Shown here piece after piece: positions 6,581 through 54,220 of a stretch of 64,000 nt of DNA (positions are counted from its first letter, which is position 1; every line of letters starts with the position of its first letter). The stretch lies in contig NZ_CP113866.1 in assembly GCF_026914305.1 (NCBI RefSeq), forward strand, positions 1,119,501 to 1,183,500, read 5' to 3'. The stretch is from Caldicellulosiruptor acetigenus. GTDB lineage: Bacteria > Bacillota > Thermoanaerobacteria > Caldicellulosiruptorales > Caldicellulosiruptoraceae. A program made the position numbers and the translations under genes. Under the pieces are notes generated by a model. That model saw only the letters and a program-made list of their open reading frames with translations, did not search any database and had not been told where the DNA came from.

Positions 6581-7324
6581 ATGATTCTCTATTTTGATGC
6601 AATCTCGGGCCTTGCGGGTGATATGCTTGTTGCATCGCTGATTGACTGTGGAGTTGATTTTGAGTATATAAAATCAAATATTTCACTTTTAAAGCTTGAT
6701 GTAGAGCTTTCGGTTGAAGAGAAATTTGTAAATGGTATTAAGGCAAAAAGGTTTATAGTAAATACTCATTCACATGACCATGAACATCACAGCGATAGCA
6801 CCCATCATCACAGAACTTTTAAAGACATAAAAAAGATGCTTTTAGAGAGCTCTTTGCCAGAGGCTGTAAAAGAAATGTCAATAAAGATATTTGAGAAAAT
6901 AGCCTTGGCAGAGGCTAAAGTGCACAGCAAGAACCCAGAAGAAATTTCTTTCCACGAGGTTGGAGCAGATGACTCAATAGTGGATATTGTTGCATTTTCT
7001 CTTTGTATAGACTATTTAAAGCCTGAAAAAATAATCTTTTCGCCTCTTTGTGACGGCAGAGGTTTTACAAAATCGATGCACGGTATTATTCCCGTGCCAG
7101 CACCAGCTGTTTTGGAGATAGCAAGGCAAAATGGCATTCCACTTTCCACAAAGGATATTGAATCTGAGCTTATAACCCCAACGGGCATTGGGATTGCAGC
7201 AGCAGTTGCAAGCTCCTTTTCACAAATGCCGAGCATGACCATCGAAAAGATTGGGTATGGTGCAGGGACAAAAGAACTTCCTATTCCCAATGTTGTAAGA
7301 GCTATAGCTGGAAAAAAAAACTGA
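6581..7324 (+). CDS. larC: Nickel insertion protein LarC, N-terminal part (LarC1)
   Basis: The 247-residue frame begins MILYFDAISGLAGDM, the LarC N-terminus, and has the histidine-rich stretch HSHDHEHHSDSTHHH (about 66-80), a likely nickel-holding segment. It stops at 7322-7324 right after a run of nine A. The -1 frame continues as the LarC C-terminal domain. LarC inserts nickel into the thiolated cofactor (a CTP-dependent cyclometallase). In Lactobacillus plantarum the gene is also split and joined by programmed frameshifting, so this half probably makes both a short form and the full 6581-7701 product. Confidence 0.93.
   Translation: MILYFDAISGLAGDMLVASLIDCGVDFEYIKSNISLLKLDVELSVEEKFVNGIKAKRFIVNTHSHDHEHHSDSTHHHRTFKDIKKMLLESSLPEAVKEMSIKIFEKIALAEAKVHSKNPEEISFHEVGADDSIVDIVAFSLCIDYLKPEKIIFSPLCDGRGFTKSMHGIIPVPAPAVLEIARQNGIPLSTKDIESELITPTGIGIAAAVASSFSQMPSMTIEKIGYGAGTKELPIPNVVRAIAGKKN
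7315..7321 (+). other. Programmed -1 ribosomal frameshift site in larC
   Basis: The heptamer A AAA AAC sits with zero-frame codons AAA and AAC, directly before the TGA at 7322. This is the canonical X XXY YYZ slippery form. After a one-base slip the frame reads through to ANIDDMTGE, the conserved start of the LarC C-terminal domain. I saw no strong downstream pseudoknot or stem. A sequencing indel in the nine-A run is the alternative, but the exact phase and the known larC1/larC2 case favour a real site. Confidence 0.75.
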
Positions 7325-7368
7325 ACTCTGACGGTGATTATTTTGAGATATTTGCAAACATTGATGAT

Positions 7369-7701
7369 ATGACGGGTGAGCATCTTTCGCTTGCGCTTGA
7401 GAAAATAATGCAAAGCGGTGCTTTGGATGTCTATTTTACTCCAATTTTCATGAAAAAAGGTCGGCCTGCTTACAAGATTGGGGTTATAACAAAAGCTCAA
7501 AACTTTGAGGATGTAGCCTCTGCAATTTTTCGCTGGACATCAACAATTGGTATAAGATTTGTAAAGATGCAAAGAATAGAGATGGAAAGAGAAGTGAGAA
7601 AGGTTAACGATGTTCCCGAAATGAGATTAAAAATAAGCTCTTATAAAGACATAAAAAAAGTAAAACTTGAGTTTGAAGATATCAAAAAGCTAAGTGAATG
7701 A
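7369..7701 (+). CDS. larC: LarC C-terminal part (LarC2), reached by -1 frameshift
   Basis: The frame is open from within the A run, so the fused product reads KKLNSDGDYFEIFANIDDMTGE onward. The first internal ATG is at 7369. It encodes the C-terminal domain of LarC (nucleotide and nickel handling). There is no SD before 7369, which argues against independent initiation. It ends 13 bases before a strong terminator and is the last gene of the run. No larA-like racemase lies in the window, so the client enzyme of the cofactor must be elsewhere. Confidence 0.88.
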   Translation: MTGEHLSLALEKIMQSGALDVYFTPIFMKKGRPAYKIGVITKAQNFEDVASAIFRWTSTIGIRFVKMQRIEMEREVRKVNDVPEMRLKISSYKDIKKVKLEFEDIKKLSE

Positions 7702-7714
7702 AAAGATAAAAAAG

Positions 7715-7748
7715 GGGATGTGCACAAAATCCATCAGCTGCACATCCC
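7715..7748. terminator. Bidirectional intrinsic terminator between larC and ychF
   Basis: Arms GGGATGTGCA (7715-7724) and TGCACATCCC (7739-7748) form a perfect 10-bp stem. ATTTATTTTT follows on the plus strand, and a T-rich stretch follows on the minus strand. It ends the lar run and the convergent ychF. Confidence 0.9.
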
Positions 7749-7780
7749 ATTTATTTTTGAATTTTGAAGAGTTGAAATCT

Positions 7781-8869
7781 TTACACATTAAACCTGAAAA
7801 TGACCACATCGCCATCTTGCATGACGTAATCTTTTCCTTCTGACCTGACAAGTCCTTTTTCTTTTGCCTGGGCAAACCCGCCACACTCTACCAGCACTTC
7901 AAACGGCACAACTTCAGCCCTTATAAATCCTTTTTCAAAATCGCTGTGGATTTTGCCAGCCGCCTGAGGTGCTTTTGTTCCTTTTTTGATTGTCCATGCT
8001 CTTACTTCTTTTTCTCCCGCTGTCAAAAACGAAATTAGTCCTAAAAGCCTGTATCCTGCCTGGATTAGATTGTCAAGTCCCGATTTTTCAATGCCAAGCT
8101 CTTTTAAGAATTCTTTCTTTTCTTCATCTGGCAGTGCAGCAATTTCCTCTTCGATTTTAGCGCAGATGACAATTACTTCTGACCCTTCTTCTGCTGCAAT
8201 TTCCTTTACTACTTTTACATATTCATTTTCTTTTCCAATATCCTTTTCAGAGATGTTAGCTGCATAGATGGTAGGTTTGAATGTAAGAAGATTGAGCGAG
8301 TTTACAAACTTCAAATCGTCTTCATCATCGAATTTGAGCGTTCTTGCCATTTTGCCACTTTCCAGTGTAGAATAAATCTTTTCCATGATTTCAAGTTCAT
8401 GTGCTGCTTCTTTGCTGTTTTTTGCAAGTTTTCTTGTCTTGTCAAGCCTTCTTTCCAGCACTTCCATGTCAGCAAATATCAGCTCTAAATTGATTGTTTC
8501 AATGTCTCTTCTTGGGTTTACACTTCCTTCCACATGGACTATATCGGTGTCGTCGAAACAGCGAACAACATGAACAATTGCGTCAACCTCTCTTATATGA
8601 GACAAAAACTTATTGCCAAGGCCTTCACCTTTGCTTGCACCTTTTACAAGCCCTGCAATGTCGACAAATTCAATAAAAGCAGGTGTCACCTTTTCAGGAT
8701 TGTATATCTTTGCAAGTACATCGAGTCTTTCATCAGGCACTGCAACAACTCCCACGTTGGGTTCAATTGTACAAAACGGGTAGTTGGCAGCTTCTGCACC
8801 CGCTTTTGTTATTGCATTAAACAGAGTACTCTTTCCTACATTTGGAAGTCCAACTATTCCAAGTCGCAT
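7781..8869 (-). CDS. ychF: Ribosome-binding ATPase YchF
   Basis: The 362-residue protein begins MRLGIVGLPNVGKSTLFNAI (G1 motif). It has DIAGLVKGAS (G3), a non-GTP-specific NISEKD in place of NKxD, a coiled-coil insert and a C-terminal TGS domain ending VVIFRFNV. This is the near-universal Obg-related ATPase that binds ribosomes. It is monocistronic on the minus strand and converges with larC. Length and motifs are typical. Confidence 0.96.
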   Translation of the reverse strand: MRLGIVGLPNVGKSTLFNAITKAGAEAANYPFCTIEPNVGVVAVPDERLDVLAKIYNPEKVTPAFIEFVDIAGLVKGASKGEGLGNKFLSHIREVDAIVHVVRCFDDTDIVHVEGSVNPRRDIETINLELIFADMEVLERRLDKTRKLAKNSKEAAHELEIMEKIYSTLESGKMARTLKFDDEDDLKFVNSLNLLTFKPTIYAANISEKDIGKENEYVKVVKEIAAEEGSEVIVICAKIEEEIAALPDEEKKEFLKELGIEKSGLDNLIQAGYRLLGLISFLTAGEKEVRAWTIKKGTKAPQAAGKIHSDFEKGFIRAEVVPFEVLVECGGFAQAKEKGLVRSEGKDYVMQDGDVVIFRFNV

Positions 8870-8968
8870 TTTTCTTTTTTGCCCCCTATGAAAATCTTTT
8901 GTTTTTTACAAATAAACAGTATAGAATACTTTGTGTCAAAAATCAATTTAGAATTGCGCAAAATAAAA

Positions 8969-9010
8969 GCGCCACCCCGCTTTCTTTTGAGCCATTTTAC
9001 AAGGTGGCGC
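8969..9010 (-). terminator. Intrinsic terminator of the small 9.0-kb gene
   Basis: GCGCCACC and GGTGGCGC form a perfect 8-bp GC-rich stem with a loop of about 26 bases. On the minus strand it is followed by TTTTATTTT. It lies just past the stop of the 52-residue gene. Confidence 0.75.
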
Positions 9011-9030
9011 TAAAAAATTTTTAAAACCTT

Positions 9031-9189
9031 TTAATCTTTTCTAAGTTTTTTTCCAATTATCATTCCAATCATCATACCCTTAAAAAGCCCTGTAAGGTAT
9101 GTCCCAAGCATACACAGCATATTCTTTTTTGCTTTGAGCATGCTGTACCTACTTCTTTGGCGATTATACAGCTTTCTTGTTCTGACCAT
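9031..9189 (-). CDS. Small basic membrane protein of unknown function
   Basis: The 52-residue protein has a very basic head (MVRTRKLYNRQRSRYSML), one hydrophobic segment rich in Gly and Met (GLFKGMMIGMIIG) and a KKLRKD tail. The ATG at 9189 is chosen because GGGGGAG lies eight bases before it; a longer frame upstream has no SD. Its own terminator follows. It has no family I recognise. The layout would fit a single-pass membrane peptide. Confidence 0.6.
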   Translation of the reverse strand: MVRTRKLYNRQRSRYSMLKAKKNMLCMLGTYLTGLFKGMMIGMIIGKKLRKD

Positions 9190-9246
9190 CTTTAAATCTC
9201 CCCCTCTTTCTATTAATGTGTGCAACTTATGAGGGGGATTATACAT

Positions 9247-9540
9247 CAGGTTATGAATAGTGCTTAAGCTATTAAAAGCAATTCAAAATTTTATTAAACA
9301 CTATTCTTTATTAGGCTATATTCAGCCTAACTGGGTGTAACCCCACACCCTCTATCCCCTCTTGCAAACGCTTCGGGGAATACTTTCTAATTCTTGATTG
9401 GTTGACTCCCTTATGCACACCATTATTTCGGCGTCTAACTATGCAAGACTAAAAGTCTTACAGTAAGCGAATCCCACCGAGGGGTTCTCAACCTCTGTGC
9501 ATAAGTTCATAGTCCCTTAGAATTAAGAAAGTACAAATAA
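9247..9540 (-). mobile_element. Decayed TnpB-type element: right end with guide-RNA region, tnpB body lost
   Basis: Read on the minus strand, 9387-9247 is about 90 percent identical to the 3' end of the intact tnpB element at 33624-33765. The shared part includes the PEAFA-coding tail, the hairpins GGGTGT/ACACCC and TTAGGCT/AGCCTAA, and the end ...TTCATAACCTG. Upstream (9388-9540) is a nested inverted-repeat region, outer arms near ACTTTCTAATTCT and AGAATTAAGAAAGT, inner arms CTTATGCACA and TGTGCATAAG. A broken frame in it reads VENPSVG, suggestive of another tnpB tail. No transposase frame remains. It may still encode an omega (guide) RNA. Confidence 0.65.
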
Positions 9541-9587
9541 ATTTTAGCAAAATCTTTCATATAATTCAATAAATTTTGTCAGTGTTT

Positions 9588-10253
9588 TTAGTCATATTCT
9601 CTATATTTTTGAGAGTTCAAAAGTACCTTTTGAACATAATTAATGGTCTCATCAAACGGTGGAATTCCACCAAACTTTAAAACATTTGCTGGTCCTGCAT
9701 TGTAGGCTGCCAGTGCAAGTTCAATGTTTCCACCAAACTCTTCAATCTTTTCCTTCAAGTATCTTATACCACCGTCTAAGTTTTCAATAGGGTCATATGG
9801 ATTTACACCAAGAGATTTTGCGGTTTGGGGCATAAGCTGCATAAGACCAATTGCGCCAGCCTTAGAGACTGTATCTTGACGAAAACCTGATTCTGCTTCA
9901 ATTACGCTCAAGACAAGGCTTGGCAAAACTCCATATTGTTTTGCCTTTTGTGTTGCGATTGATATTATATCGTCTTTGCTAAGATTAAATTTGTCGGTCG
10001 AAGGCTCAAAAGAATAGCTTGAGCTTTGCAGGTTGTAGCTGCCAAGTCTTTTGTTCAAAATAATATCTGCAGCTTTTGTCTGTGTGCTCAAAATTGGTGT
10101 ATCAGTTTCTACATTGGTTGTTTGAACGGCATTTTCAAAGCTCTGCACAAATATATCTTTAAAATTTTGGGGCAGGTTAGTTTTGCTTGATATTCTTTGC
10201 GCTATCTGGGAAAATTTCTGCGCAATAAAATCCTGAACATTATAAATTGCCAT
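9588..10253 (-). CDS. Lytic transglycosylase (SLT domain)
   Basis: The 221-residue protein has a variable N-terminal 100 residues and a C-terminal goose-lysozyme-like SLT domain. The catalytic glutamate is in SVIEAESGF, followed by [28 protein letters not shown] and ALAAYNAGP. It cleaves peptidoglycan between MurNAc and GlcNAc. No signal peptide is visible at the N-terminus ([13 protein letters not shown]), as in some flagellar or phage-type enzymes, so export must use another route or the protein acts inside an assembly. Confidence 0.88.
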
Positions 10254-16047: not shown

Positions 16048-17208
16048 ATGGCTATAAAGCCAGTGTTTGTAAGCACATATCCTCCGAGAGAATGTGGTAT
16101 TGCCACTTTTACACAGGATTTGGTAAATGCAATTGAAAAATATAATGATGTAAGACGTTGTTATATAATTGCTCTGAGCAAAGACAAGCATATTTATGAC
16201 AATAGAGTAATATATGATATTAACCAAGATAAATTTTCAAATTATGTAAAAGCAGCTAATCTTATTAATATGTCTGACATTGATGTTGTGGTAATTGAGC
16301 ATGAATATGGGATATTTGGCGGGGAGGATGGAGATTATATAATCCCATTTGTGAAGCTTATCAAAAAACCAATCATTACAACATTCCACACAGTTTTGAA
16401 AAATCCAACTGCAAAACAATTTGAGATACTGAAAAAGTTGGCAGATGCAAGTTTCAAGGTCATCACAATGGCAAAAACAACAAAGGATATTCTCATGGAA
16501 GTGTATGACATAGAAGAAGAAAAGATTGAAATTGTTCATCATGGTGTTCCTTATATGGAACTTGAAGATAGAGAGACTTTAAAAGAAAAGTATGGATTAA
16601 AAGGTAGAAAAGTGATATCCACGTTTGGGCTTATTAGCCCTGGCAAGGGTTTAGAGTATGCGATTGAAGCAATGGACAAGGTAAGAAAAGAATTTCCAGA
16701 GGCTGTGTATTTAATTTTGGGTCAAACACATCCAAATATCAAAAGAATAAAGGGCGAAGAGTATAGAGAAAAACTTATGAATATGGTAAAAGAATTAAAG
16801 TTAGAAAACAACGTCCAGTTTGTTGACAAATATCTAACAAAAGTAGAAATAATGGAGTATTTGCGACTGAGCGACATTTACCTGACTCCTTACATAGGGA
16901 GGGAGCAGGCAGTATCAGGTACGCTCGCATATGCTATTGGTTCTGGCAAGGCTATAGTTTCGACGCCTTATACTTACGCTCAGGAGATGCTATCAAGTGG
17001 CAGAGGTGTTCTTGTAGAGTTTGAAGATGCACAGTCGATTGCAGATGGTATATTGATGCTTTTGAAAGATGAAAGTCTCAGGAAAGAGATTGAAAGAAAG
17101 ACATTGGAGATTGGCAAAGAAATGTACTGGCACAATGTTGCAAAGAGAATGATAGATATATTCTATGATGTTGTTGAGATAAATAAGAAGGTAGGGGTGA
17201 TAGCATGA
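16048..17208 (+). CDS. GT4-family glycosyltransferase
   Basis: The 386-residue GT-B protein starts PVFVSTYPPRECGIATF. It has the acceptor-side EHEYGIFGG, the hinge FGLISPGKGLEYAIEAMD and the donor-site region YIGREQAVSGTLAYAIGSG. It transfers a sugar from a nucleotide-sugar donor; acceptor and donor are unknown. AAAGGAGGG precedes the ATG. Its stop overlaps the next start in ATGA, so translation is coupled. Similar GT4 plus helical-barrel pairs occur in mannan- or oligosaccharide-related clusters. Confidence 0.88.
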   Translation: MAIKPVFVSTYPPRECGIATFTQDLVNAIEKYNDVRRCYIIALSKDKHIYDNRVIYDINQDKFSNYVKAANLINMSDIDVVVIEHEYGIFGGEDGDYIIPFVKLIKKPIITTFHTVLKNPTAKQFEILKKLADASFKVITMAKTTKDILMEVYDIEEEKIEIVHHGVPYMELEDRETLKEKYGLKGRKVISTFGLISPGKGLEYAIEAMDKVRKEFPEAVYLILGQTHPNIKRIKGEEYREKLMNMVKELKLENNVQFVDKYLTKVEIMEYLRLSDIYLTPYIGREQAVSGTLAYAIGSGKAIVSTPYTYAQEMLSSGRGVLVEFEDAQSIADGILMLLKDESLRKEIERKTLEIGKEMYWHNVAKRMIDIFYDVVEINKKVGVIA

Positions 17209-18287
17209 AAAGAGGAACAAAAAGGCTTGCCCTTCCTTCTTTGAACACAAAACATCTTTTTAGAATGACAGACTCAACAGGAATTTTGCAGCACGCTAAA
17301 TTCTCAGTCCCAAACTACAAAGAAGGATATACCACAGATGACAATGCAAGAGCGCTGATTGTTGCCTTGAGGCTTTATGAAAAGACAGGAGACAAATCTT
17401 ACCTTGACCTTGTTTACAGATACATGGCGTTTTTATACAATGCTTACACTGAGGATGGCTTTTTCAGAAACTTTATGAATTATTCAAGGGTGTTTCTGGA
17501 CGAGAAAGGCACAGAAGACTGTTTTGCAAGGTCTTTGATTGCTCTTTCGTATGTTTACAGCTCTGAGATACTTGATAGCTCTATTAAAGAGCTTGCGTAT
17601 GTGATGTTAAAACGCTCGCTCAGAAATGTTTTGCATCTCACCTATCCAATTAGCATTGCATATTCAGTGATTGCACTTTCAATACTGCACGACATAAAAG
17701 AGTTTTCAAGTGAAGCAAAAATGTACTTAGAAGCTCTTTCTGAAAAACTTTTAAACTTTTACCACAAACACTCAGATGAAAACTGGAAATGGTTTTCAGA
17801 CAAGCTCACATATGCCAATGCGATAATTCCCTATGCTTTGTTTAGAGCTTTTGCTGTTACAGAAAAAGAAAAGTATTTAAAGGTTGCAAAAGAAGCTCTT
17901 GATTTCTTGTCTGGTATTTTATTTGAAAATGGCTTTTTGAGAGTTATAGGGAACAGAGGATGGTATGAAAAAGGGAAAGAACGTCCTTATTTTGATGAAC
18001 AACCAATTGATGCATGTGACTGTGTGATTGCCTATACTGAGGCTTATAAAATCACTGAAGAAAAAGAATACAAAGAAAAAGCTCTCAAAGCTTTCAGGTG
18101 GTTTTTGGGTGAAAATATTCACAGAAAACCTCTGTATGATGAAAAAACAGGAGGATGTAGAGACGGTATAGAAGAGGATGGCATTAACCAGAACCAGGGT
18201 GCAGAGTCTACCATTTGCTACCTCTTAGCAAGGCTTTTCATTGAAGAGCTTGTTAAAAGTGAAGAAAAGAACAAAGAGGTTGTGTAA
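17205..18287 (+). CDS. (alpha/alpha)6-barrel carbohydrate-related protein
   Basis: The 360-residue protein has regularly spaced helices and motifs TTDDNARALIVALRLYE, NWKWFSDKLTYANAIIPYAL and NQNQGAESTICYL. These are typical of six-hairpin glycosidase-like proteins found next to GT4 enzymes. It may be a glycoside hydrolase or phosphorylase-like partner, but the catalytic residues cannot be assigned. It overlaps the GT4 gene by four bases and ends in a strong terminator. Confidence 0.7.
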   Translation: MKRGTKRLALPSLNTKHLFRMTDSTGILQHAKFSVPNYKEGYTTDDNARALIVALRLYEKTGDKSYLDLVYRYMAFLYNAYTEDGFFRNFMNYSRVFLDEKGTEDCFARSLIALSYVYSSEILDSSIKELAYVMLKRSLRNVLHLTYPISIAYSVIALSILHDIKEFSSEAKMYLEALSEKLLNFYHKHSDENWKWFSDKLTYANAIIPYALFRAFAVTEKEKYLKVAKEALDFLSGILFENGFLRVIGNRGWYEKGKERPYFDEQPIDACDCVIAYTEAYKITEEKEYKEKALKAFRWFLGENIHRKPLYDEKTGGCRDGIEEDGINQNQGAESTICYLLARLFIEELVKSEEKNKEVV

Positions 18288-18309
18288 GTTTCTCACAACC
18301 TCTTTTTTT
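18273..18309 (+). terminator. Intrinsic terminator of the GT4 operon
   Basis: AAAGAGGTTGTG (18273-18284) pairs perfectly with CACAACCTCTTT (18294-18305) and runs into a T tract. The stem includes the last codons of the upstream gene. Confidence 0.9.
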
Positions 18310-18545
18310 CTTCTAATTTTTTAAAAATTGGTGTATTTTGATTTTCTATGGTTGTTTTGAGATTGTTTTGACTATCTTCCTTGCTAAGATTCAAATAGTT
18401 TTGGAATGTTTCTGTTATTCTTTCAATATCACTTGGCTTTTTCATTTCTTTTATTCCTGCTAAGTAAAGTGTTTGATATTATTATTGACAAAAATTATAA
18501 TTGTTATTAGAAAGAAAAAGATAGATTTTGGGGAGAAAGGTTTTA

Positions 18546-19211
18546 GTGATTTCAAAGCGAATTGAGGAAATCATAAATCTATTGGATAGGTGCAATACTC
18601 TTGCTGATATAGGATGTGACCACGGATATGTTGCGGTAGAAGCTATCAAAAGAAAAATTGCAAATAGAGTCTTTGCAGTTGACATCAATCTTCAACCTCT
18701 TTTGAAAGCAAAAGAGCTTTCTAAAAAAGAAAATGTGGATGATAAAATAGAGTTTTTACTTGGCAACGGATTTGACCCAATTGAGGGCAGTGTTGATGAA
18801 GCTGTTATTGCAGGGATGGGAGCAGAAAACATCTGTAGTATTTTATCCAGGGCAAAGGACAGAATATTTAATACCACCTTGATATTGCAGCCAATGAAAG
18901 ATGTTGAGCTTTTAAGAAAATGGCTTTTTGAAAATGGGTTTGATATATTAAAGGAAAAAGTTATAAAAGACAAAAACAGGTTTTATGTTATTATAAAATC
19001 CAGCTACTTGCCGGAAAAAATATCTTTTTCAGATAAAGATATTTACATTGGAAGACACATTCTTGACAGAACAGAAGAAGCTTACGAATTTCTTTTGAAA
19101 ATGAAAGAAAAGATGAAGAAAATCATAGGGATGAAAAAGAAGAGCTTTTTAGATACCTCATATGAAGAAAAGGTTTTAATTATGATTGAGGAGGAATTGA
19201 AAAAGTGGTAA
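18546..19211 (+). CDS. trmK: tRNA (adenine(22)-N1)-methyltransferase
   Basis: The 221-residue class I methyltransferase has RCNTLADIGCDHGYVAVEA as SAM motif I, VDEAVIAGMGAENI and LILQPMKDVELLRKWL, all typical of TrmK (YqfN). It methylates A22 of tRNA. GTG 18546 is chosen because GGGAGAAAGG lies six or more bases before it; a TTG at 18528 in frame has no SD. It overlaps the nif3-like gene by seven bases, the conserved trmK-yqfO pairing. Confidence 0.92.
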   Translation: MISKRIEEIINLLDRCNTLADIGCDHGYVAVEAIKRKIANRVFAVDINLQPLLKAKELSKKENVDDKIEFLLGNGFDPIEGSVDEAVIAGMGAENICSILSRAKDRIFNTTLILQPMKDVELLRKWLFENGFDILKEKVIKDKNRFYVIIKSSYLPEKISFSDKDIYIGRHILDRTEEAYEFLLKMKEKMKKIIGMKKKSFLDTSYEEKVLIMIEEELKKW

Positions 19212-20305
19212 GTGTTCAGGAGATAATTTCGTTTATAGAGACCTATTTTCCCAAAAAGCTCTCATATGAATGGGACAACTGTGGTCTTCAGGTTGGAAGT
19301 TATTCAGACAAATTAGATTCGGTTTTAATCTGTGTTGATATAACAGAAGAGGTTATAAAAGAAGCATTAGAGCTTGGAGCAAAGCTTATAATTTCCCATC
19401 ATCCCCTTATTTTTCAGGGAATCAAAAGCATAAAAGATGACACACCAGAAGGAAGGATTATCATAGATGCTATCAAAAACGGCATAAATATATACTCTGC
19501 TCACACCAGTGCAGATGTCTCGAAATACGGTATAAACCACTGGCTTGCCAATCTCATAGGTCTTAAAAACATTGAAGGTTTGAGCGTCAAACAAAAAAAT
19601 GGGTATTTTAAAGTTGTGGTGTATGTGCCGGTAGACTATGTTCAAAATGTGTTAGAGGCAATGGCAAATGAAGGTGCGGGCTTTGTTGGAAAATACAGCC
19701 ACTGCTTTTTTGCCACAGAAGGTGAAGGAAGTTTTAAACCTCAAGAAGGTGCAAAACCTTTTTTGGGAGAGGTAGGTAAGCTTGAAAGGGTTAAAGAGGT
19801 GAGACTTGAGAGCATAGTACCTGAAGATAAGCTTAAAAATGTGATAAGAGCGATGTTAAAAGCTCATCCTTATGAAGAGGTTGCATATGACATATACCGG
19901 CTTGAAAATGAAATATCATATGAAAGTTTAGGAGTTATTGGTGAAAGAGAGGTTTTGGCAAGAGAACTTATTTTAGAGCTAAAACAAAAACTTGGACTTG
20001 ACTTTGTAAAAGCAAGCATTCAAAAAGATGCTTTTAAGAAGATAGCCATTGTCAGTGGTTCTGGTAAGGATCTTATAAAGGATGCATATTTCAAAGGTGC
20101 AGACTGTCTTATCACAGGGGAAGTTGGTCACCACGGGATTTTGTTGGCAAAGTCGCTATCCATGAGCATAATAGAGCTTGGTCATTATGAGAGCGAGAAG
20201 GTGTTTGTGGATATCGTTTACAGCCTTTTTGAAGACTTTAAGAAAAAAGATGATCTGAAAATATATAAATCCAAAATCAATACCAGCTTTACAAACATTT
20301 ACTAA
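19205..20305 (+). CDS. Nif3-like dinuclear metal-centre protein (YqfO type)
   Basis: The 366-residue protein has a Nif3 core split by a central PII/CutA-like insert (about 130-235). The metal ligands are in ISHHPLIFQG, SAHTSADVS and LGHYESEK. The function is unresolved; a GTP cyclohydrolase I-like role has been proposed for relatives. The GTG start lies inside the trmK 3' end, behind the GAGGAATTG SD. Confidence 0.92.
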   Translation: MVSVQEIISFIETYFPKKLSYEWDNCGLQVGSYSDKLDSVLICVDITEEVIKEALELGAKLIISHHPLIFQGIKSIKDDTPEGRIIIDAIKNGINIYSAHTSADVSKYGINHWLANLIGLKNIEGLSVKQKNGYFKVVVYVPVDYVQNVLEAMANEGAGFVGKYSHCFFATEGEGSFKPQEGAKPFLGEVGKLERVKEVRLESIVPEDKLKNVIRAMLKAHPYEEVAYDIYRLENEISYESLGVIGEREVLARELILELKQKLGLDFVKASIQKDAFKKIAIVSGSGKDLIKDAYFKGADCLITGEVGHHGILLAKSLSMSIIELGHYESEKVFVDIVYSLFEDFKKKDDLKIYKSKINTSFTNIY

Positions 20306-47574: not shown

Positions 47575-47617
47575 AAAAAGGGCTAAGTACACATCTGGTG
47601 CCGCCTTAGCCCTTTTT
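47575..47617. terminator. Bidirectional terminator closing the defence island
   Basis: AAAAAGGGCTAAG (47575-47587) pairs perfectly with CTTAGCCCTTTTT (47605-47617). It serves the restriction pair on the plus strand and the DUF815 gene on the minus strand, overlapping the latter's stop. Confidence 0.88.
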
Positions 47618-48928
47618 CATTTTCTGGTTTGCCTCATACCAGTCTACAAACTGCTTTGCAGTTCGAGGTGACCGGCCATTGTAGTTCATCTCCCACTGCA
47701 GTGCAAGCCTGTGCAGCTCTTCTGTAATCTCAATTCCTCTTTTCTTTGCAATCTCCTCAACAATTGCAAGGTATTCCTGCTGGGTTGGGGATGGGTATGT
47801 GACTATTATTCCGAATCTGTCAGCAAGAGAAAGTTTTTCTTCTAAAGTGTCCTGCCAGTGTACTTCATCATCAGAAAAACTGCTTCTGTCGCTAAACCTT
47901 TCTTTTACCAGGTGTCTTCTGTTTGAAGTTGCATATATCACAACATTTTGAGGCATTGCTTCTAAAGATCCTTCTAATATGGCTTTTAGTTTGGTATAAT
48001 TTTCCTCAATATCTTCAAAAGACAAATCATCTACAAAGATTATAAACTTAAGCGGGACATCTCTTAAGATTCTTATTAATTTTGGAAAAGTGTAAAGCTG
48101 GTCTTTGAACACCTCAACAACTCTCAAACCTCTGTGAGAAAATTCGTTCAAAAGAGCCTTTACAGTTGATGACTTTCCAGTCCCTCTGCTGCCATAGAGC
48201 AAAATATTGTTGACCTTCTTACCATTTAAAAACGCCAAAGTATTTTCAACAACAATCTTCTTTTGCCTTTCAATATTTACAAGGTCATCAAGTCTTATTG
48301 GGTCTAAATTTTCAATACCCACAAGATTATTTCCGTCCCATGAAAAACCTTTGTACCTTGCGAAAATTCCAAAGCCATTTTGCTTGTGGAATTCTATAAG
48401 CTCCTCAATTAAACTGCTCCAAGGAGTTATATTCAAAAATTTTTCAATGATGGTTTTTGTAGAATTATCAATGGTGTTGTGCAACATGGTATTTGTGACT
48501 TTAAACTCTAAAAAACTTTCAGCTAAAAAGTCTGATAAGGTGGCACAATCTTTTAAGTAATCCCTTATCTCTTTTCCTGAAAAGTTTGATATAAACTCAA
48601 GACAATCTAAATCATGAGCTGTGGCTTTTTTAAGACTTTCGTCTATTGCTATATTGTTAATACTTTTTGCTGCTAATTTTGTAAAAGTATTTTCACTAAA
48701 GAGAATTTTCGCAATAATGTATTCTTTTAAACTGCACCTTTTCCCGGCTTCTAAAAGATTGTAATAAACTGTGCTGTAAAGATTTATAACTTTTTTCAAA
48801 TCATGATTTCCATCGTCAATATAGCAGATAAGATTATACAGCTTTTCAAGAACACTATCATGAAGAAGGTTTCGATAGACTTTTAGACTTTCAAAACACA
48901 GCCTGTATAGCCCTATTTTCTCTTCCAT
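47606..48928 (-). CDS. DUF815 AAA+ ATPase
   Basis: The 440-residue protein has a helical N-terminal half. The AAA+ core follows: NILLYGSRGTGKSSTVKAL (Walker A), FIIFVDDLSFE (Walker B), VVIYATSNRRHLVKE (sensor 1) and a C-terminal GRSPRTAKQFVDW. DUF815 proteins are broadly conserved in Firmicutes and proteobacteria with no assigned role. ATG 48928 has AAAGGAG 10-16 bases before it; an upstream TTG overlaps that SD. Confidence 0.88.
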   Translation of the reverse strand: MEEKIGLYRLCFESLKVYRNLLHDSVLEKLYNLICYIDDGNHDLKKVINLYSTVYYNLLEAGKRCSLKEYIIAKILFSENTFTKLAAKSINNIAIDESLKKATAHDLDCLEFISNFSGKEIRDYLKDCATLSDFLAESFLEFKVTNTMLHNTIDNSTKTIIEKFLNITPWSSLIEELIEFHKQNGFGIFARYKGFSWDGNNLVGIENLDPIRLDDLVNIERQKKIVVENTLAFLNGKKVNNILLYGSRGTGKSSTVKALLNEFSHRGLRVVEVFKDQLYTFPKLIRILRDVPLKFIIFVDDLSFEDIEENYTKLKAILEGSLEAMPQNVVIYATSNRRHLVKERFSDRSSFSDDEVHWQDTLEEKLSLADRFGIIVTYPSPTQQEYLAIVEEIAKKRGIEITEELHRLALQWEMNYNGRSPRTAKQFVDWYEANQKMKKG

Positions 48929-49005
48929 TGTAGCACGTCTCCTTTGTACCAAAATTAGAATCTTTTGTAATAAAAGTTATACTCAAATTTCCTTTGATTT
49001 TTAAC

Positions 49006-49472: not shown

Positions 49473-49793
49473 ATGGAAAACAATAACCTTCTTTTTGAAC
49501 CTTCATTGGAAAACTTTAAAGAAAGAAGAATATACGATTCAAGAAAATTTATCTGGGTTGCAATACTTGCAGGTCTTCTTCCATTGACTGTTGTATGTAT
49601 TTCTAATTTAAAAACACTTGGTTTAAGTAAAAGAGTTATAAATACGTTTTTAGTTCTTGCCATTTTGATTTTTGCAGTTGAATTTGGTTTTTATTACTAT
49701 ACTACTAAATTATTGATACATAAAGAAAGAGGTTATAGTACTATTGAGGAGTACAGAAAAGGCATTTTAGAGGAAAAAAAGAAAGAGAAATAG
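49473..49793 (+). CDS. Membrane protein of the TPR locus, copy 1, first part
   Basis: The 106-residue frame begins ENNNLLFEPSLENFKERRIY and has two membrane helices (about 28-42 and 57-75). It aligns with residues 1-100 of the intact 182-residue protein at 52566 (GNQELFEPILENYESKRIY). It stops at TAG 49791 just after an A-rich stretch. The remaining domain continues in the -1 frame at 49811. GAGGGGAATTGGGGG precedes the ATG. Confidence 0.7.
   Translation: MENNNLLFEPSLENFKERRIYDSRKFIWVAILAGLLPLTVVCISNLKTLGLSKRVINTFLVLAILIFAVEFGFYYYTTKLLIHKERGYSTIEEYRKGILEEKKKEK
49775..49781 (+). other. Candidate -1 frameshift heptamer in membrane protein copy 1
   Basis: A AAA AAG lies with zero-frame codons AAA and AAG, the same heptamer and phase as the dnaX frameshift site. 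A -1 slip continues ...REIAGIYKSMFRLGQ into the second part. The alternative is an ordinary one-base indel that split the gene. No clear downstream stem-loop is seen. Confidence 0.45.
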
Positions 49794-49810
49794 CAGGAAT
49801 TTACAAGAGT

Positions 49811-50014
49811 ATGTTTAGATTGGGGCAAAAATTACTCGATGTCTTATATCTTCTTCTGTATAAAAGAATAGAAAGGAAACAAATTCTATACTATTACATT
49901 TCTAAAAATAATCTATATAAACCAATGATAGGTTTGGTAATAGGTATAGTGGTTATTGAATTCTCAGTAGTAGCTTTCTTGTATGCAATATCAAATATTT
50001 TTAGCGGTTTTTAA
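49811..50014 (+). CDS. Membrane protein of the TPR locus, copy 1, second part
   Basis: The 67-residue frame matches the C-terminal third of the intact copy (LLDVLYLLLYKRIERKQI versus LFNVLYLLLYRILEKRQI) and ends in a glycine-rich membrane helix. Its first ATG has no SD, so it is probably made only as a frameshift fusion with the first part, or not at all. It ends 15 bases before the TPR gene start. Confidence 0.6.
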   Translation: MFRLGQKLLDVLYLLLYKRIERKQILYYYISKNNLYKPMIGLVIGIVVIEFSVVAFLYAISNIFSGF

Positions 50015-50029
50015 TTGGGGGATGAAATA

Positions 50030-50917
50030 ATGGAAGATAGAAGTTTAATATCGTTTTACATTGACAAGGGTGATTATGAAAAAGCAAAAGATTTGATTTT
50101 TGGCCTGCTAAAAGAAAATCCGTATGATATTAGTTTATATTTAAACCTTGCTTTAATTGAAATTAGAGAAAAAAATTTAAAGAAAGCAGAGGAGTATGCT
50201 AAGCAAGCGCTAAGTATAGATGCTAATCATAAAGGTGTGTGGGCTGTTTTAGGCAAAATATATCATTTAAAAAAGGAATATTCTCAGGCAGAAAAATGTT
50301 ATTTACAGGCTTTGAAAATAGACAGTGCCTTTGTGGAAGTATTAGTTTCTTACAGTGAACTTTTGATTGAGACAGGCTTTGTTGAAAAAGGGTTAGATAT
50401 TTTAAAATATGCCCAATCATTAGAACCTACAAATTCGCTTATTTTACAAAATGAATTTTATGTAAATCTTTACCAAATGAATTATCAAAAAGCAAATGAA
50501 AGTATCAGAAAGCTGTTTTCATCTACCATGGATATTGAGAATATTTATGTGTTACTAATTTTATATGAATACAATCGGTCAAATTTCAAGAAAGCATATG
50601 AATATGCAAAACTTGCTTTTAAAGAAAGACCAACAGATTACAATTTATTGAAGATAATGGAATACTTAAAAATGATTAATTCACCTTTGTTTTTTATAAA
50701 TCGATTAGCCAGCAAAATTTCCTCAGAACTACTATATATTATTTTTGTTGGAATTTCTTTAATACTTTATTTACTTAAACAATATTCAGCTTTGACTATT
50801 TGGAGTGTGTTTGTTCTACTTATCAGTATTTTGAGCTATTTATCTACATATATCTATAGACTAATCCAGTATATCAAAAAGATATTTACAAGAGTGTTAA
50901 ATAATAAAAAATTTTGA
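50030..50917 (+). CDS. TPR protein with C-terminal membrane hairpin, copy 1
   Basis: The 295-residue protein has about four TPR units in residues 1-150 (YEKAKDLIFGLLKENPYD, NLKKAEEYAKQALSIDANHK, YSQAEKCYLQALKIDSAF). A further helical part and two membrane helices near 235-275 follow, then a basic tail. It is paired with the membrane protein before it and is a paralogue of the gene at 53118. ATG 50030 follows GGGGG at good spacing. TPRs suggest a scaffold at the membrane. Confidence 0.82.
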   Translation: MEDRSLISFYIDKGDYEKAKDLIFGLLKENPYDISLYLNLALIEIREKNLKKAEEYAKQALSIDANHKGVWAVLGKIYHLKKEYSQAEKCYLQALKIDSAFVEVLVSYSELLIETGFVEKGLDILKYAQSLEPTNSLILQNEFYVNLYQMNYQKANESIRKLFSSTMDIENIYVLLILYEYNRSNFKKAYEYAKLAFKERPTDYNLLKIMEYLKMINSPLFFINRLASKISSELLYIIFVGISLILYLLKQYSALTIWSVFVLLISILSYLSTYIYRLIQYIKKIFTRVLNNKKF

Positions 50918-51088
50918 GATTGAAAAATTTATCATCTGATAACAAATATCTATTTTTAAGCTGTTAAGTAATGATGTCATGGAAAAACTAATAGTTGTAA
51001 CCAAGCACTTTTTAAAACACATCTTCTTTCTGACAGTAATATAGCTTTTTTGTTCCACAATCTCTCATAATAGCTTTTAATCCTCATA

Positions 51089-51118
51089 TTGACATGTTAG
51101 CTAGGTATAGTATATAAT
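51089..51118 (+). promoter_or_regulatory. Promoter of the TPR-AAA ATPase
   Basis: TTGACA (51089-51094) and TATAAT (51113-51118) are perfect boxes spaced 18 bases. The start codon is only 34 bases from the -10, and no SD is visible before it, so the leader is very short. Confidence 0.75.
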
Positions 51119-51151
51119 TTAGGCAAACTTTATATAAAAAATATAAAAAAT

Positions 51152-52546
51152 ATGAGCAAGATAAGAGTACTTGAAAAATTGCTTCAAGAAATGCCTGATA
51201 AAAGTGAAATACTTTATTTGCTCGGGCTTGAATACGCGGAAAATGGAAATAGTACTGCTGCCATGAATTATTTTATAGCAGCGTTGAAAAATTGCAATGA
51301 GGAAGATCTTAAGCTTTTAATAGTAGCTGCTATGAGTAGTGTTGTTAAAAAAGAGAAGGCTCCACAAACGGATTTAAAGGAGAATTCTAAAATTTCAGAT
51401 ATACAAGAGGACAAAAAGGTGGTGAAAATTGAAGAGTATTCAAATCCCAAAAAGGAATGCATAGAAATAAACCATGAATTTGAGGCAGATGGTGAATTTG
51501 ATGAGGATGAAGAAATTGTAAAAGAAGAGGAGTATGAAGAAGCTGAAAAGGAAGAATTAGAAGAGGAATTTGAAGAAGTCGAAGAAGCAAATGGTAATGA
51601 TGAACATTTAGAAAATGTTATTGACTTTCAAGTTTTTAAAACTAAAAGAGAAATACACAAATTTATTGAAGAAAGAGAAGAAAAGTTTACTTTTAGTGAT
51701 ATTGGCGGCTATGAGGAGTTAAAAAACATACTAACTATAAGGATTATAAAACCTCTTTTTAATCCATCTATTTTCCAGAAATTTAGGAAAAGGATAGGTG
51801 GGGGTATTCTCTTTTATGGTCCACCAGGCTGTGGTAAGACATTTTTTGCACGGGCTTTAGCAGGTGAGTGTAATTTGCCTTTTTTAGCTGTTAACATTTC
51901 TGATATACTTGATCCATATTTTGGACAAAGCGAAAAAAACTTAAAAGAAGTTTTTGAGTATGCTCGCTTTCACAAACCGTGTGTACTTTTCTTTGATGAA
52001 GTTGACACATTTGGTTATAGCAGAGTAAAACAAAGACAAGAATCCTTCCGAGTGCTCACAGATGAATTACTGTTGCAGATGGATGGATTCAAATCTGAAA
52101 ATGAAGGAATACTTATTATTGGTGCTACTAATACTCCATGGGATTTAGACATGGCTTTGTTAAGACAAGGAAGATTTGACAGACTTATATTTGTTCCACC
52201 TCCTGATTTAGAAGCCCGACGAGAAATTTTCAGAGTAAAGTTGATGGGAAGACCTGTGGATGGTGAGATAAATTACGATTTATTAGCGCAAAGGACTTCT
52301 TTTTTCTCAGGAGCGGATATTGAAAATGTAGTAGAAACTGCTGCGGAAGCGATTATAGATGAAATATTGAGCGGAGGGAAAGAAAGAGGAATAACTACTG
52401 GAGATTTGCTCAAAGCAATTGAAAAGGTTAAACCTTCTACTATTGAATGGCTGCGAATCATGAAAAACTATATTACTTTCGCAAATGAAGATGGAAGGTT
52501 TGATGATGTTGCAAAGTTTATTAACAAATACTGCAGACATTTATAA
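51152..52546 (+). CDS. TPR-AAA+ ATPase of the membrane-TPR locus
   Basis: The 464-residue protein has one or two TPR units (about 1-50), a strongly acidic linker (about 110-155) and an FtsH/CDC48-type AAA domain. That domain has FSDIGGYEELK, Walker A GPPGCGKTFFARALA (about 224), Walker B CVLFFDEVD (about 279), the second region GATNTPWDLDMALLRQGRFDRL and sensor 2 GADIENVV. A second AAA ring or protease domain is absent. It is flanked by the two membrane/TPR pairs and probably remodels a client at the membrane, which is inference. No SD precedes the ATG. Confidence 0.85.
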   Translation: MSKIRVLEKLLQEMPDKSEILYLLGLEYAENGNSTAAMNYFIAALKNCNEEDLKLLIVAAMSSVVKKEKAPQTDLKENSKISDIQEDKKVVKIEEYSNPKKECIEINHEFEADGEFDEDEEIVKEEEYEEAEKEELEEEFEEVEEANGNDEHLENVIDFQVFKTKREIHKFIEEREEKFTFSDIGGYEELKNILTIRIIKPLFNPSIFQKFRKRIGGGILFYGPPGCGKTFFARALAGECNLPFLAVNISDILDPYFGQSEKNLKEVFEYARFHKPCVLFFDEVDTFGYSRVKQRQESFRVLTDELLLQMDGFKSENEGILIIGATNTPWDLDMALLRQGRFDRLIFVPPPDLEARREIFRVKLMGRPVDGEINYDLLAQRTSFFSGADIENVVETAAEAIIDEILSGGKERGITTGDLLKAIEKVKPSTIEWLRIMKNYITFANEDGRFDDVAKFINKYCRHL

Positions 52547-52565
52547 ATATAGGTGGTGAGAAGAG

Positions 52566-53114
52566 ATGGAAGGGAACCAGGAACTTTTTGAACCCATATT
52601 GGAAAATTATGAGAGTAAAAGAATTTATAAGTCTCAAAACTTTTGGTGGGTGGCTATTCTTGCGGGCATTATTCCTTTAGCAGCTGTTTGTATTGGAAAT
52701 TTAAAAACAATGGGTGTTGGCAAGAAAATAATTAATGTGTTTATATTATTAGCTATTTTATTCTATGCTGCTGAAGCTTGTGTTATTACTTATGAAACAA
52801 TTACAGAAGTAAGAGAGAGAAAGACTAAAGAGAAAATTGTTGACATCAGAGAACGGTTAAAGAAATCAAATGAGATTACGAATGAAAGAAAAAATGATAT
52901 TAAATCTTACAGGAAAATTATTGTAAGATTATTTAATGTACTATATTTGCTTCTTTATAGAATCTTAGAAAAGAGACAGATTGTATATTATAATGCTGTT
53001 AAAAATGGTTTTTACAAGCCAATGGCAGCTGTTGTGTTCGTGGGAATTTTAATACAAGTAGGCATAGGATTAGCTATAGGAGCAGTAGTTGCTAAATTAG
53101 CAGGGGGGTTATGA
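52566..53114 (+). CDS. Membrane protein of the TPR locus, copy 2 (intact)
   Basis: The 182-residue protein starts EGNQELFEPILENYESKRIY. Two membrane helices lie near 27-42 and 57-75, a charged cytoplasmic helix (RERKTKEKIVDIRERLKK) follows, and a final glycine-rich helix is near 155-178. It is the complete form of the gene split at 49473/49811. It starts 20 bases after the ATPase and ends four bases before the TPR gene, so the three form an operon. I recognise no family. Confidence 0.75.
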   Translation: MEGNQELFEPILENYESKRIYKSQNFWWVAILAGIIPLAAVCIGNLKTMGVGKKIINVFILLAILFYAAEACVITYETITEVRERKTKEKIVDIRERLKKSNEITNERKNDIKSYRKIIVRLFNVLYLLLYRILEKRQIVYYNAVKNGFYKPMAAVVFVGILIQVGIGLAIGAVVAKLAGGL

Positions 53115-53117
53115 GGT

Positions 53118-54002
53118 GTGCAGAGAGACCTTGTCTTGCATTATTTAGAAAGTGGAAATTATGAAAAAGCACGTGAAGTTATTCAAAACATTTTACAAGA
53201 AGACCCTTTAAATGCAGAAGCATATATTCAACTTTCAGTTATAGAATTGGAATCTGATAATCTGAAAAAAGCAGAAGATTATGCTAAAGAAGCTCTGAGA
53301 ATTGATTCTAATAATAAAGTTGCATGGGCTGTTTTAGGGCAGATATATCACCATCAAAAAGATTATTCTCAGGCTGAGAGATGTTATTTGCAAGCTTTAA
53401 AGATAGATAATGTTTATGTAGAAGTCTTAGCTTGTTACAGCGGACTTTTGATTGAAACAGGTTTTATTGAAAAGGGCTTAGAAATTTTAAAATATGCCAA
53501 GTCTTTGGAACCCACAAATGATTTAATTTTAGAAAATGAATTTTTTGTAAATCTTTACAATAGAAATTTTGAAAAGGCTAACAAGACAATTAAAAAATTG
53601 TTTGCATCTTCAGGCAAAATTGGCAGTATATATAAGTTATTAGTTTTGTATGAAGTCAATAGAGGAAACTTCAAAAAGGCGTATAATCATGCTAAGCTTG
53701 CTTGGCAAGAATATCCAAATGACAAAGATATGCTTATGGTTTTGGAGTATTTGAAAATGCTTAACTCGCCTTTGCTATACTTTAACCGCCTCTTTTTGAA
53801 GTTACCATATGAATTATTTTATATCTTATTTTTGGGTGGTTTTTTGTTATTAAGTCTAATAAAAATGTATATACTGGCTGCTGTTTGGGTTATTATATTT
53901 AGCTTTATTTATATGATGGTATTTGTGATGCCGAGTGTATATAAATTTAGCAAATTTGTTAAAAAAGCTTTTATAAGATTATTTTGTAAAAGAAAATATT
54001 AA
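53118..54002 (+). CDS. TPR protein with C-terminal membrane hairpin, copy 2
   Basis: The 294-residue paralogue of the 50030 gene has the same TPR order (YEKAREVIQNILQEDPLN, DYSQAERCYLQALKIDNVY, GLEILKYAKSLEPTND), with two membrane helices near 233-265 and a basic end. Copies differ throughout, so the duplication is old enough to diverge while the frame of this copy stayed intact. Start GTG 53118 after GGGGGGTTATGAG. Confidence 0.82.
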   Translation: MQRDLVLHYLESGNYEKAREVIQNILQEDPLNAEAYIQLSVIELESDNLKKAEDYAKEALRIDSNNKVAWAVLGQIYHHQKDYSQAERCYLQALKIDNVYVEVLACYSGLLIETGFIEKGLEILKYAKSLEPTNDLILENEFFVNLYNRNFEKANKTIKKLFASSGKIGSIYKLLVLYEVNRGNFKKAYNHAKLAWQEYPNDKDMLMVLEYLKMLNSPLLYFNRLFLKLPYELFYILFLGGFLLLSLIKMYILAAVWVIIFSFIYMMVFVMPSVYKFSKFVKKAFIRLFCKRKY

Positions 54003-54031: not shown

Positions 54032-54160
54032 CTAAATGAGCATACCAAGAGAAATTTTCTTGTCATATTCGCACTTTCAACAGGTGCAGAGATTCTTCTT
54101 TTGGATGAGCCAACGCAAAATCTTGACCTAAGCATTATTCGTAACCTACTTGATCGATAG
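54032..54160 (+). pseudogene. Fragment of an ABC transporter ATPase
   Basis: The frame reads LVIFALSTGAEILLLDEPTQ and then NLDLSIIRNLLDR before a stop. This is the Walker B and D-loop region of an ABC ATPase with no Walker A, signature motif or start. It is a short relic between the TPR locus and the next small genes. No matching partner remains nearby; the ABC operon at 55-57 kb is a different gene. Confidence 0.6.
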
Positions 54161-54220
54161 GCAAAGAAAAAGGTTTTTTAATTAAGTGATTTCCGGCATC
54201 ATCGATGAAGAAGATAGAAT

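Follow-up and report, generated by a model that had tools for sequence, protein, structure and literature searches.

The window (the whole stretch of 64,000 nucleotides from Caldicellulosiruptor acetigenus that was analysed; source genome size 2.74 Mb) harbours a three-gene operon, AAA–MEM2–TPR2, which encodes a TPR-AAA ATPase, a small membrane protein and a membrane-anchored TPR protein and is the working unit of the locus studied here. Its products are proposed to constitute a membrane-tethered, Cdc48-like unfoldase or segregase to which the TPR partner would present clients, a reading that is given even chances. The upstream gene pair MEM1–TPR1 is an old tandem duplicate that was functional until recently and is now decaying and dispensable.

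Operon structure and gene content

Five genes on the plus strand follow each other in the order membrane protein, TPR protein with transmembrane segment, TPR-AAA ATPase, membrane protein and TPR protein with transmembrane segment. This order, already claimed in an earlier note on this DNA, was borne out, with Pfam detecting TPRs in TPR1 and TPR2 and assigning an AAA domain plus lid to the ATPase. Neither MEM1 nor MEM2 could be assigned to a Pfam family above cut-off; the only match, to DUF6773, was sub-threshold.

The operon begins with the ATPase gene (464 aa; 51152–52546, +), which is separated by 19 bases from MEM2 (182 aa; 52566–53114, +), an intact gene for a small membrane protein with 3–4 transmembrane helices, and MEM2 is followed after only 3 bases by TPR2 (53118–54002, +). 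Between genomes G000 and G005, dN/dS amounted to 0.15 for AAA, 0.31 for MEM2 and 0.21 for TPR2. A sigma-70-like promoter (TTGACA-N18-TATAAT; 51089–51118, +) serves AAA–MEM2–TPR2, leaving 33 bases between its end and the ATPase start. That the ATPase has its own promoter had been proposed earlier and agrees with the 12/12 match of this site and its retention in 4/4 genomes carrying the ATPase gene. Since promoter-like sites in the region are not more numerous than in shuffled sequence, weight is placed on the perfect match and the four-genome conservation rather than on site counts. Despite the perfect promoter, the ATPase start (51119–51152) lacks a Shine-Dalgarno-like sequence in 4/4 genomes.

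The structural model of TPR2 displays six TPRs and a C-terminal two-helix hydrophobic hairpin (pLDDT 92), the transmembrane hairpin comprising residues 231–290 (53808–53987, +) according to hydropathy and the AF2 helices 231–247 and 251–290. By the positive-inside rule and the C-terminal KKAF...KRKY, the TPRs are predicted to face the cytoplasm. Fold searches with TPR2 retrieved generic TPR superhelices only. For MEM2, four long helical elements were modelled (pLDDT 80), and no match in the PDB was obtained, either by sequence or by fold (Foldseek).

Decay and recurrence of the duplicated gene pair

The paralogous nature of the two pairs, as earlier recognized, is evident from about 47 % identity over 97 aa between MEM1 and MEM2, from 54 % identity between TPR1 and TPR2, and from the motifs LFEPxLEN and SQAExCYLQALKID, both of which were found in the paralogues. 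The first membrane protein gene, formerly taken as intact, is however frameshifted. MEM1 (49473–50014, +) runs in frame 0 from 49473 to 49793, where the reading frame breaks after 106 codons, and its second half continues in the -1 frame to 50014; compared to the whole gene of G005 (179-aa ortholog), one base is missing from an A-run. At the frame junction, this single-base loss has created the heptamer A_AAA_AAG (49775–49781, +). A_AAA_AAG is a classic slippery sequence, and it is possible that full-length MEM1 is produced by programmed slippage there. TPR1 (50030–50917, +), coding for a TPR protein with a C-terminal transmembrane hairpin, retains a whole open frame in the source genome.

The situation is reversed in G005, where MEM1 is whole and TPR1 is frameshifted by a two-base insertion, while the upstream pair is missing without trace from G004 and G008, in which homology to the other two genomes begins just 5' of the -35 box of the ATPase promoter. 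AAA–MEM2–TPR2 therefore stands alone in two genomes. With a dN/dS (G000 versus G005) of 0.16 over most of the gene, TPR1 was selected until not long ago, and the frameshifts are of recent origin; the corresponding value for MEM1 was about 0.4. A sequencing error in one base is possible, but the separate lesions in two genomes and the loss in two more are mutually consistent.

The persistence of both copies, from which a heteromeric ring had been suggested, does not apply to Caldicellulosiruptor: independent frameshifts and absence from sister genomes led to the rejection of two working copies acting as a heteromer in this genus. The suggestion retains some room elsewhere. In the tree of TPR proteins, the two Caldicellulosiruptor copies cluster together (100/100), two Clostridium copies cluster separately and both Lysinibacillus copies fall inside their own clade, indicating that the TPR (or MEM plus TPR) part was duplicated in tandem at least three times, whereas the ATPase stayed single throughout. 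Because the tandem pairs of Clostridium and Lysinibacillus arose independently, heteromeric membrane scaffolds are conceivable in these two genera. Decay of the module also occurs outside Caldicellulosiruptor, as evident from broken copies in G140, where the TPR gene is interrupted by an in-frame TAG (L038, 3144–4022), and in Heliobacterium mobile, where the ATPase gene is broken (L061).

Domain architecture and family placement of the ATPase

The ATPase is composed of N-terminal TPR (about residues 1–52), an acidic linker (about residues 105–155), a Cdc48-like AAA domain and a C-terminal tail. The acidic linker noted earlier is indeed present and is longest in Caldicellulosiruptor, the only genus in which the linker is both long and acidic; across the family it is variable, and its acidity is no family trait. 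Among solved structures, the AAA domain is nearest to Cdc48/p97 D2, and alignments confirmed a D2-like core with Walker A/B, sensor and arginine-finger regions. Across 32 family members, Walker A (GPPGCGKT; 51818–51841, +; invariant or nearly so), Walker B (FFDE; 51989–52000, +), the pore-loop Tyr-x-Gly region and the arginine-finger region (RxGRF) are conserved. The family-defining feature is the C-terminal signature tail PSTxEWLRTxKNYxxxANxxGxYxDVxxYL (52433–52543, +), which, as judged from inspected alignments, is not shared by the other AAA families encountered. The ATPase has neither an M41 match in Pfam nor an HExxH motif, and its 464-aa sequence ends about 115 residues past the AAA core; lacking a protease domain, the ATPase itself would not degrade its substrates.

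Scores against curated NCBIfam models remained far below the respective cut-offs, i.e., 206.5 bits for FtsH (AAA part only; cut-off 600), 195.6 bits for CDC48 (cut-off 802; one AAA domain instead of two) and 114.3 bits for IetA (cut-off 510). Being far below the cut-offs for FtsH, CDC48, PAN and IetA, the ATPase is not a member of these families. The best LapB score was 26.6 bits (cut-off 363–474), and the 62.9 bits of TPR2 with type_IV_pilW (cut-off 154) represent a generic TPR match and not PilW/PilF. The source genome also holds an FtsH-like locus (L037).

A known secretion or pilus system was considered and rejected, as no NCBIfam model was matched at its curated cut-off and only generic TPR matches were obtained.

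Distribution and linkage of the module

Using the tail (PSTxEWLRTxKNYxxxANxxG) as family marker, 42 loci were retrieved from 84,980 species genomes. They include members of Lysinibacillus, Bacillus, Robertmurraya, Gottfriedia, Paenibacillus, Saccharibacillus, Brevibacillus, Clostridium and Heliobacterium, as well as MAGs labelled Pseudomonadota, Myxococcales and Armatimonadota; ATPase relatives with an adjoining TPR gene were also detected in Nonomuraea and on large plasmids from Streptomyces and Actinomyces. The AAA plus TPR core hence spans Bacillota, Actinomycetota, Armatimonadota, Myxococcota and proteobacterial MAGs, with unrelated flanks.

As in the window, the tail-bearing AAA gene adjoins a TPR gene in 38 of the 42 usable loci (37 by script, plus L090, the TPR gene of which the script overlooked since open frames run together). 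Among the four exceptions, the ATPase gene is broken in two (L061 and L065); the complete locus L072 has no adjoining TPR gene. The module with all three genes was recovered from Lysinibacillus, Bacillus, Brevibacillus, Paenibacillus, Clostridium and others, and most Bacillota loci share the gene order MEM–TPR–AAA. No neighbour gene beyond AAA, MEM and TPR recurs across lineages.

The complete triad AAA–MEM2–TPR2 occurs in 4 of 12 Caldicellulosiruptor genomes, and distant searches with TPR2 revealed the same partners in G140, G225 and G139. Among 398 sampled Bacillota genomes, the tail was found in 8, and matches to the MEM profile of at least 69 bits were confined to 6 of these 8, the best match in the 390 tail-negative genomes reaching 28 bits. 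G225 has its MEM gene roughly 640 bases short of a contig end, with TPR–AAA at the start of another contig, as is consistent with one operon split by assembly. G139 and G296 possess an ATPase without MEM, this ATPase being short and devoid of the N-terminal TPR. ATPases without the N-terminal TPR form a divergent branch (L040, L127). Outside Bacillota, no MEM was detected at the search sensitivity applied. The module is thus rare, patchy and co-inherited as a unit, and with 4/12 Caldicellulosiruptor and 8/398 Bacillota genomes it is not a core proteostasis machine. The AAA–TPR adjacency together with the co-occurrence of MEM and AAA rules out that these families exist only as isolated, unlinked genes, an outcome that the earlier note had named as speaking against a common system.

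Genomic surroundings and the question of a defence role

In the window, the module adjoins genes for an OLD/GajA-like protein, an adenine methyltransferase and a PD-(D/E)XK protein, which are real, and in Caldicellulosiruptor it always resides at the methyltransferase–PD-(D/E)XK–DUF815 locus. The DUF815 AAA protein (47606–48952, -; 321 bits) is encoded in 12/12 Caldicellulosiruptor genomes, mostly beside the methyltransferase locus; 2 of these genomes encode it twice. In G005 (L117), the module is located between two paralogous methyltransferase–PD-(D/E)XK–DUF815 cassettes (6936–9647 and 16608–19289) arranged as direct repeats, recombination between which could delete it; members of the genus without the module have no second cassette beside that site. 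On the 3' side of TPR2, a short open stretch (54058–54163, +; LVIFALSTGAEILLLDEPTQNLDLSIIRNLLDR) represents the remnant of an ABC-transporter ATPase.

From these surroundings a defence or abortive infection system could be envisaged, in which phage complexes are sensed or taken apart by the AAA ring and the effector role falls to the membrane subunits. The patchy distribution, the neighbouring OLD/GajA-like, methyltransferase and PD-(D/E)XK genes in Caldicellulosiruptor, the weak AAA similarity to IetA and a type I methyltransferase among the scanned flanking genes of other lineages would all suit such a role. The IetA similarity, however, is not only far under its cut-off but also below the FtsH and CDC48 scores, and neither an IetS subtilisin-like protease gene among the annotated genes of the window nor any linked protease family recurring in flanks elsewhere was found. 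Moreover, flanks in other lineages mostly comprise metabolic, transport, germination and housekeeping genes, only a handful of 60 flanking genes matching PADLOC models at 1e-10, and no relatives were retrieved from IMG/VR, phage records giving FtsH-like partial matches only. A defence role, which had been left open in view of the neighbouring island, is on this evidence improbable; the island setting looks local and better explained by a variable integration site.

Two related candidates were dismissed. A known defence system is contradicted by PADLOC matches to IetA/TRIP13 that are weak and reflect the AAA fold only, and by flanks elsewhere not enriched in defence genes. Phage or plasmid origin is at odds with the FtsH-like nature of the phage matches and the empty IMG/VR search, the plasmid matches being Actinomycetota relatives on mostly large replicons.

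Proposed function

We infer complex formation, topology, substrate class and extraction activity along the following lines. The ATPase would form a ring, as is common to its family, would hydrolyse ATP, as suggested by the motifs present, and would dock via its own N-terminal TPR and C-terminal tail onto TPR2, which the two-helix hairpin would hold at the cytoplasmic face. The multi-pass MEM protein would serve as membrane subunit or client-recognition partner, and the clients that the ring would pull or remodel would be proteins residing in the membrane or bound to it. A soluble ring tethered in this way through TPR contacts to a scaffold in the membrane would be the most economical mechanism. 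The previously advanced view, in which a TPR scaffold at the membrane feeds an unfoldase, fits the anatomy best.

In a more far-reaching version, the module would be a bacterial membrane-protein segregase, i.e., a Cdc48-like ring that docks on TPR and multi-pass membrane receptors of its own to extract or dislocate membrane proteins, a counterpart of Msp1, Pex1/Pex6 or Cdc48-driven ER-associated degradation, spread across at least 5 phyla by gene loss or transfer. This version is put forward tentatively, as possible rather than probable. The main rival of the unfoldase/segregase reading is a dedicated chaperone that would assemble or activate a single envelope enzyme complex, resembling SpoVK, which has been reported to activate MurG (PMC10659427), rather than a general extractor. 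Dedicated, co-inherited membrane partners, the missing protease domain, the frequent service of TPR scaffolds in assembly and a patchy occurrence befitting a niche client would agree with such a chaperone; yet the neighbourhoods of the module share no conserved third-party client gene across lineages, and SpoVK is absent among the NCBIfam models listed for the ATPase. This function is considered rather unlikely.

The TPR-AAA protein could alternatively unfold membrane clients for degradation by FtsH or another separate protease, comparable to LapB feeding FtsH. The adjacency of a membrane TPR adaptor to an AAA protein of FtsH-like score (206 bits) and locus L037 in the same genome point in this direction. 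However, none of the lineages examined has a protease gene linked with the module, and the ATPase apparently shows no known protease-docking motif; an adaptor-fed front end is considered improbable.

If the membrane-tethered unfoldase is real, it would be an undescribed bacterial machine acting on proteins at the cell membrane. Being compact and present in culturable hosts, among them Caldicellulosiruptor thermophiles and Lysinibacillus, the three-gene operon renders bacterial extraction or remodelling of membrane proteins without FtsH testable, and the ATPase tail provides a clean marker for finding the system, next to a MEM family without Pfam model. No description of the module was found in the open-access literature, subscription journals and bioRxiv lying outside the scope of the search.

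Comparison with known systems

To our knowledge, it is from eukaryotes that Cdc48-type AAA proteins lacking a protease and served by dedicated membrane receptors are known. With Cdc48/p97, the ATPase shares the nearest solved AAA domain (D2), its Walker A/B, sensor and arginine-finger regions and the lack of a protease domain, but it has a single AAA domain where Cdc48/p97 has two, carries N-terminal TPR in place of the Cdc48 N domain, ends in a distinct C-terminal tail and has dedicated membrane partners in the operon. Likeness to IetA of the antiphage system IetAS is confined to an AAA ATPase beside defence genes in the window, whereas the score is 114 bits against a cut-off of 510 and no IetS protease is present.

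An AAA motor combined with a membrane-anchored TPR protein is also found in FtsH and LapB/YciM, the latter being a membrane-anchored TPR adaptor that works with FtsH (PMC7157816, PMC8745692). In contrast to that pair, the ATPase described here has neither an M41 domain nor membrane helices, its TPR partner is anchored C-terminally, and the NCBIfam scores are far under both cut-offs. Msp1/ATAD1, a single-AAA unfoldase acting on membrane proteins (PMC9273213), has its single AAA domain and a related clade in common with the present ATPase. The anchors of the latter would be separate proteins. Msp1, in contrast, bears its own N-terminal membrane anchor.

In the peroxisomal system, the soluble Cdc48-type AAA proteins Pex1/Pex6 are recruited to the membrane by the alpha-helical, C-terminally anchored Pex15/PEX26 (see peroxisome reviews, e.g., PMC4133648). 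The present module may be analogous in combining a soluble Cdc48-type AAA protein with a C-terminally anchored partner, while Pex1/Pex6 differs as a eukaryotic heterohexamer with two AAA domains. By analogy, the ATPase may work like Msp1, Pex1/Pex6–Pex15 or LapB–FtsH, as a motor paired with a membrane receptor.
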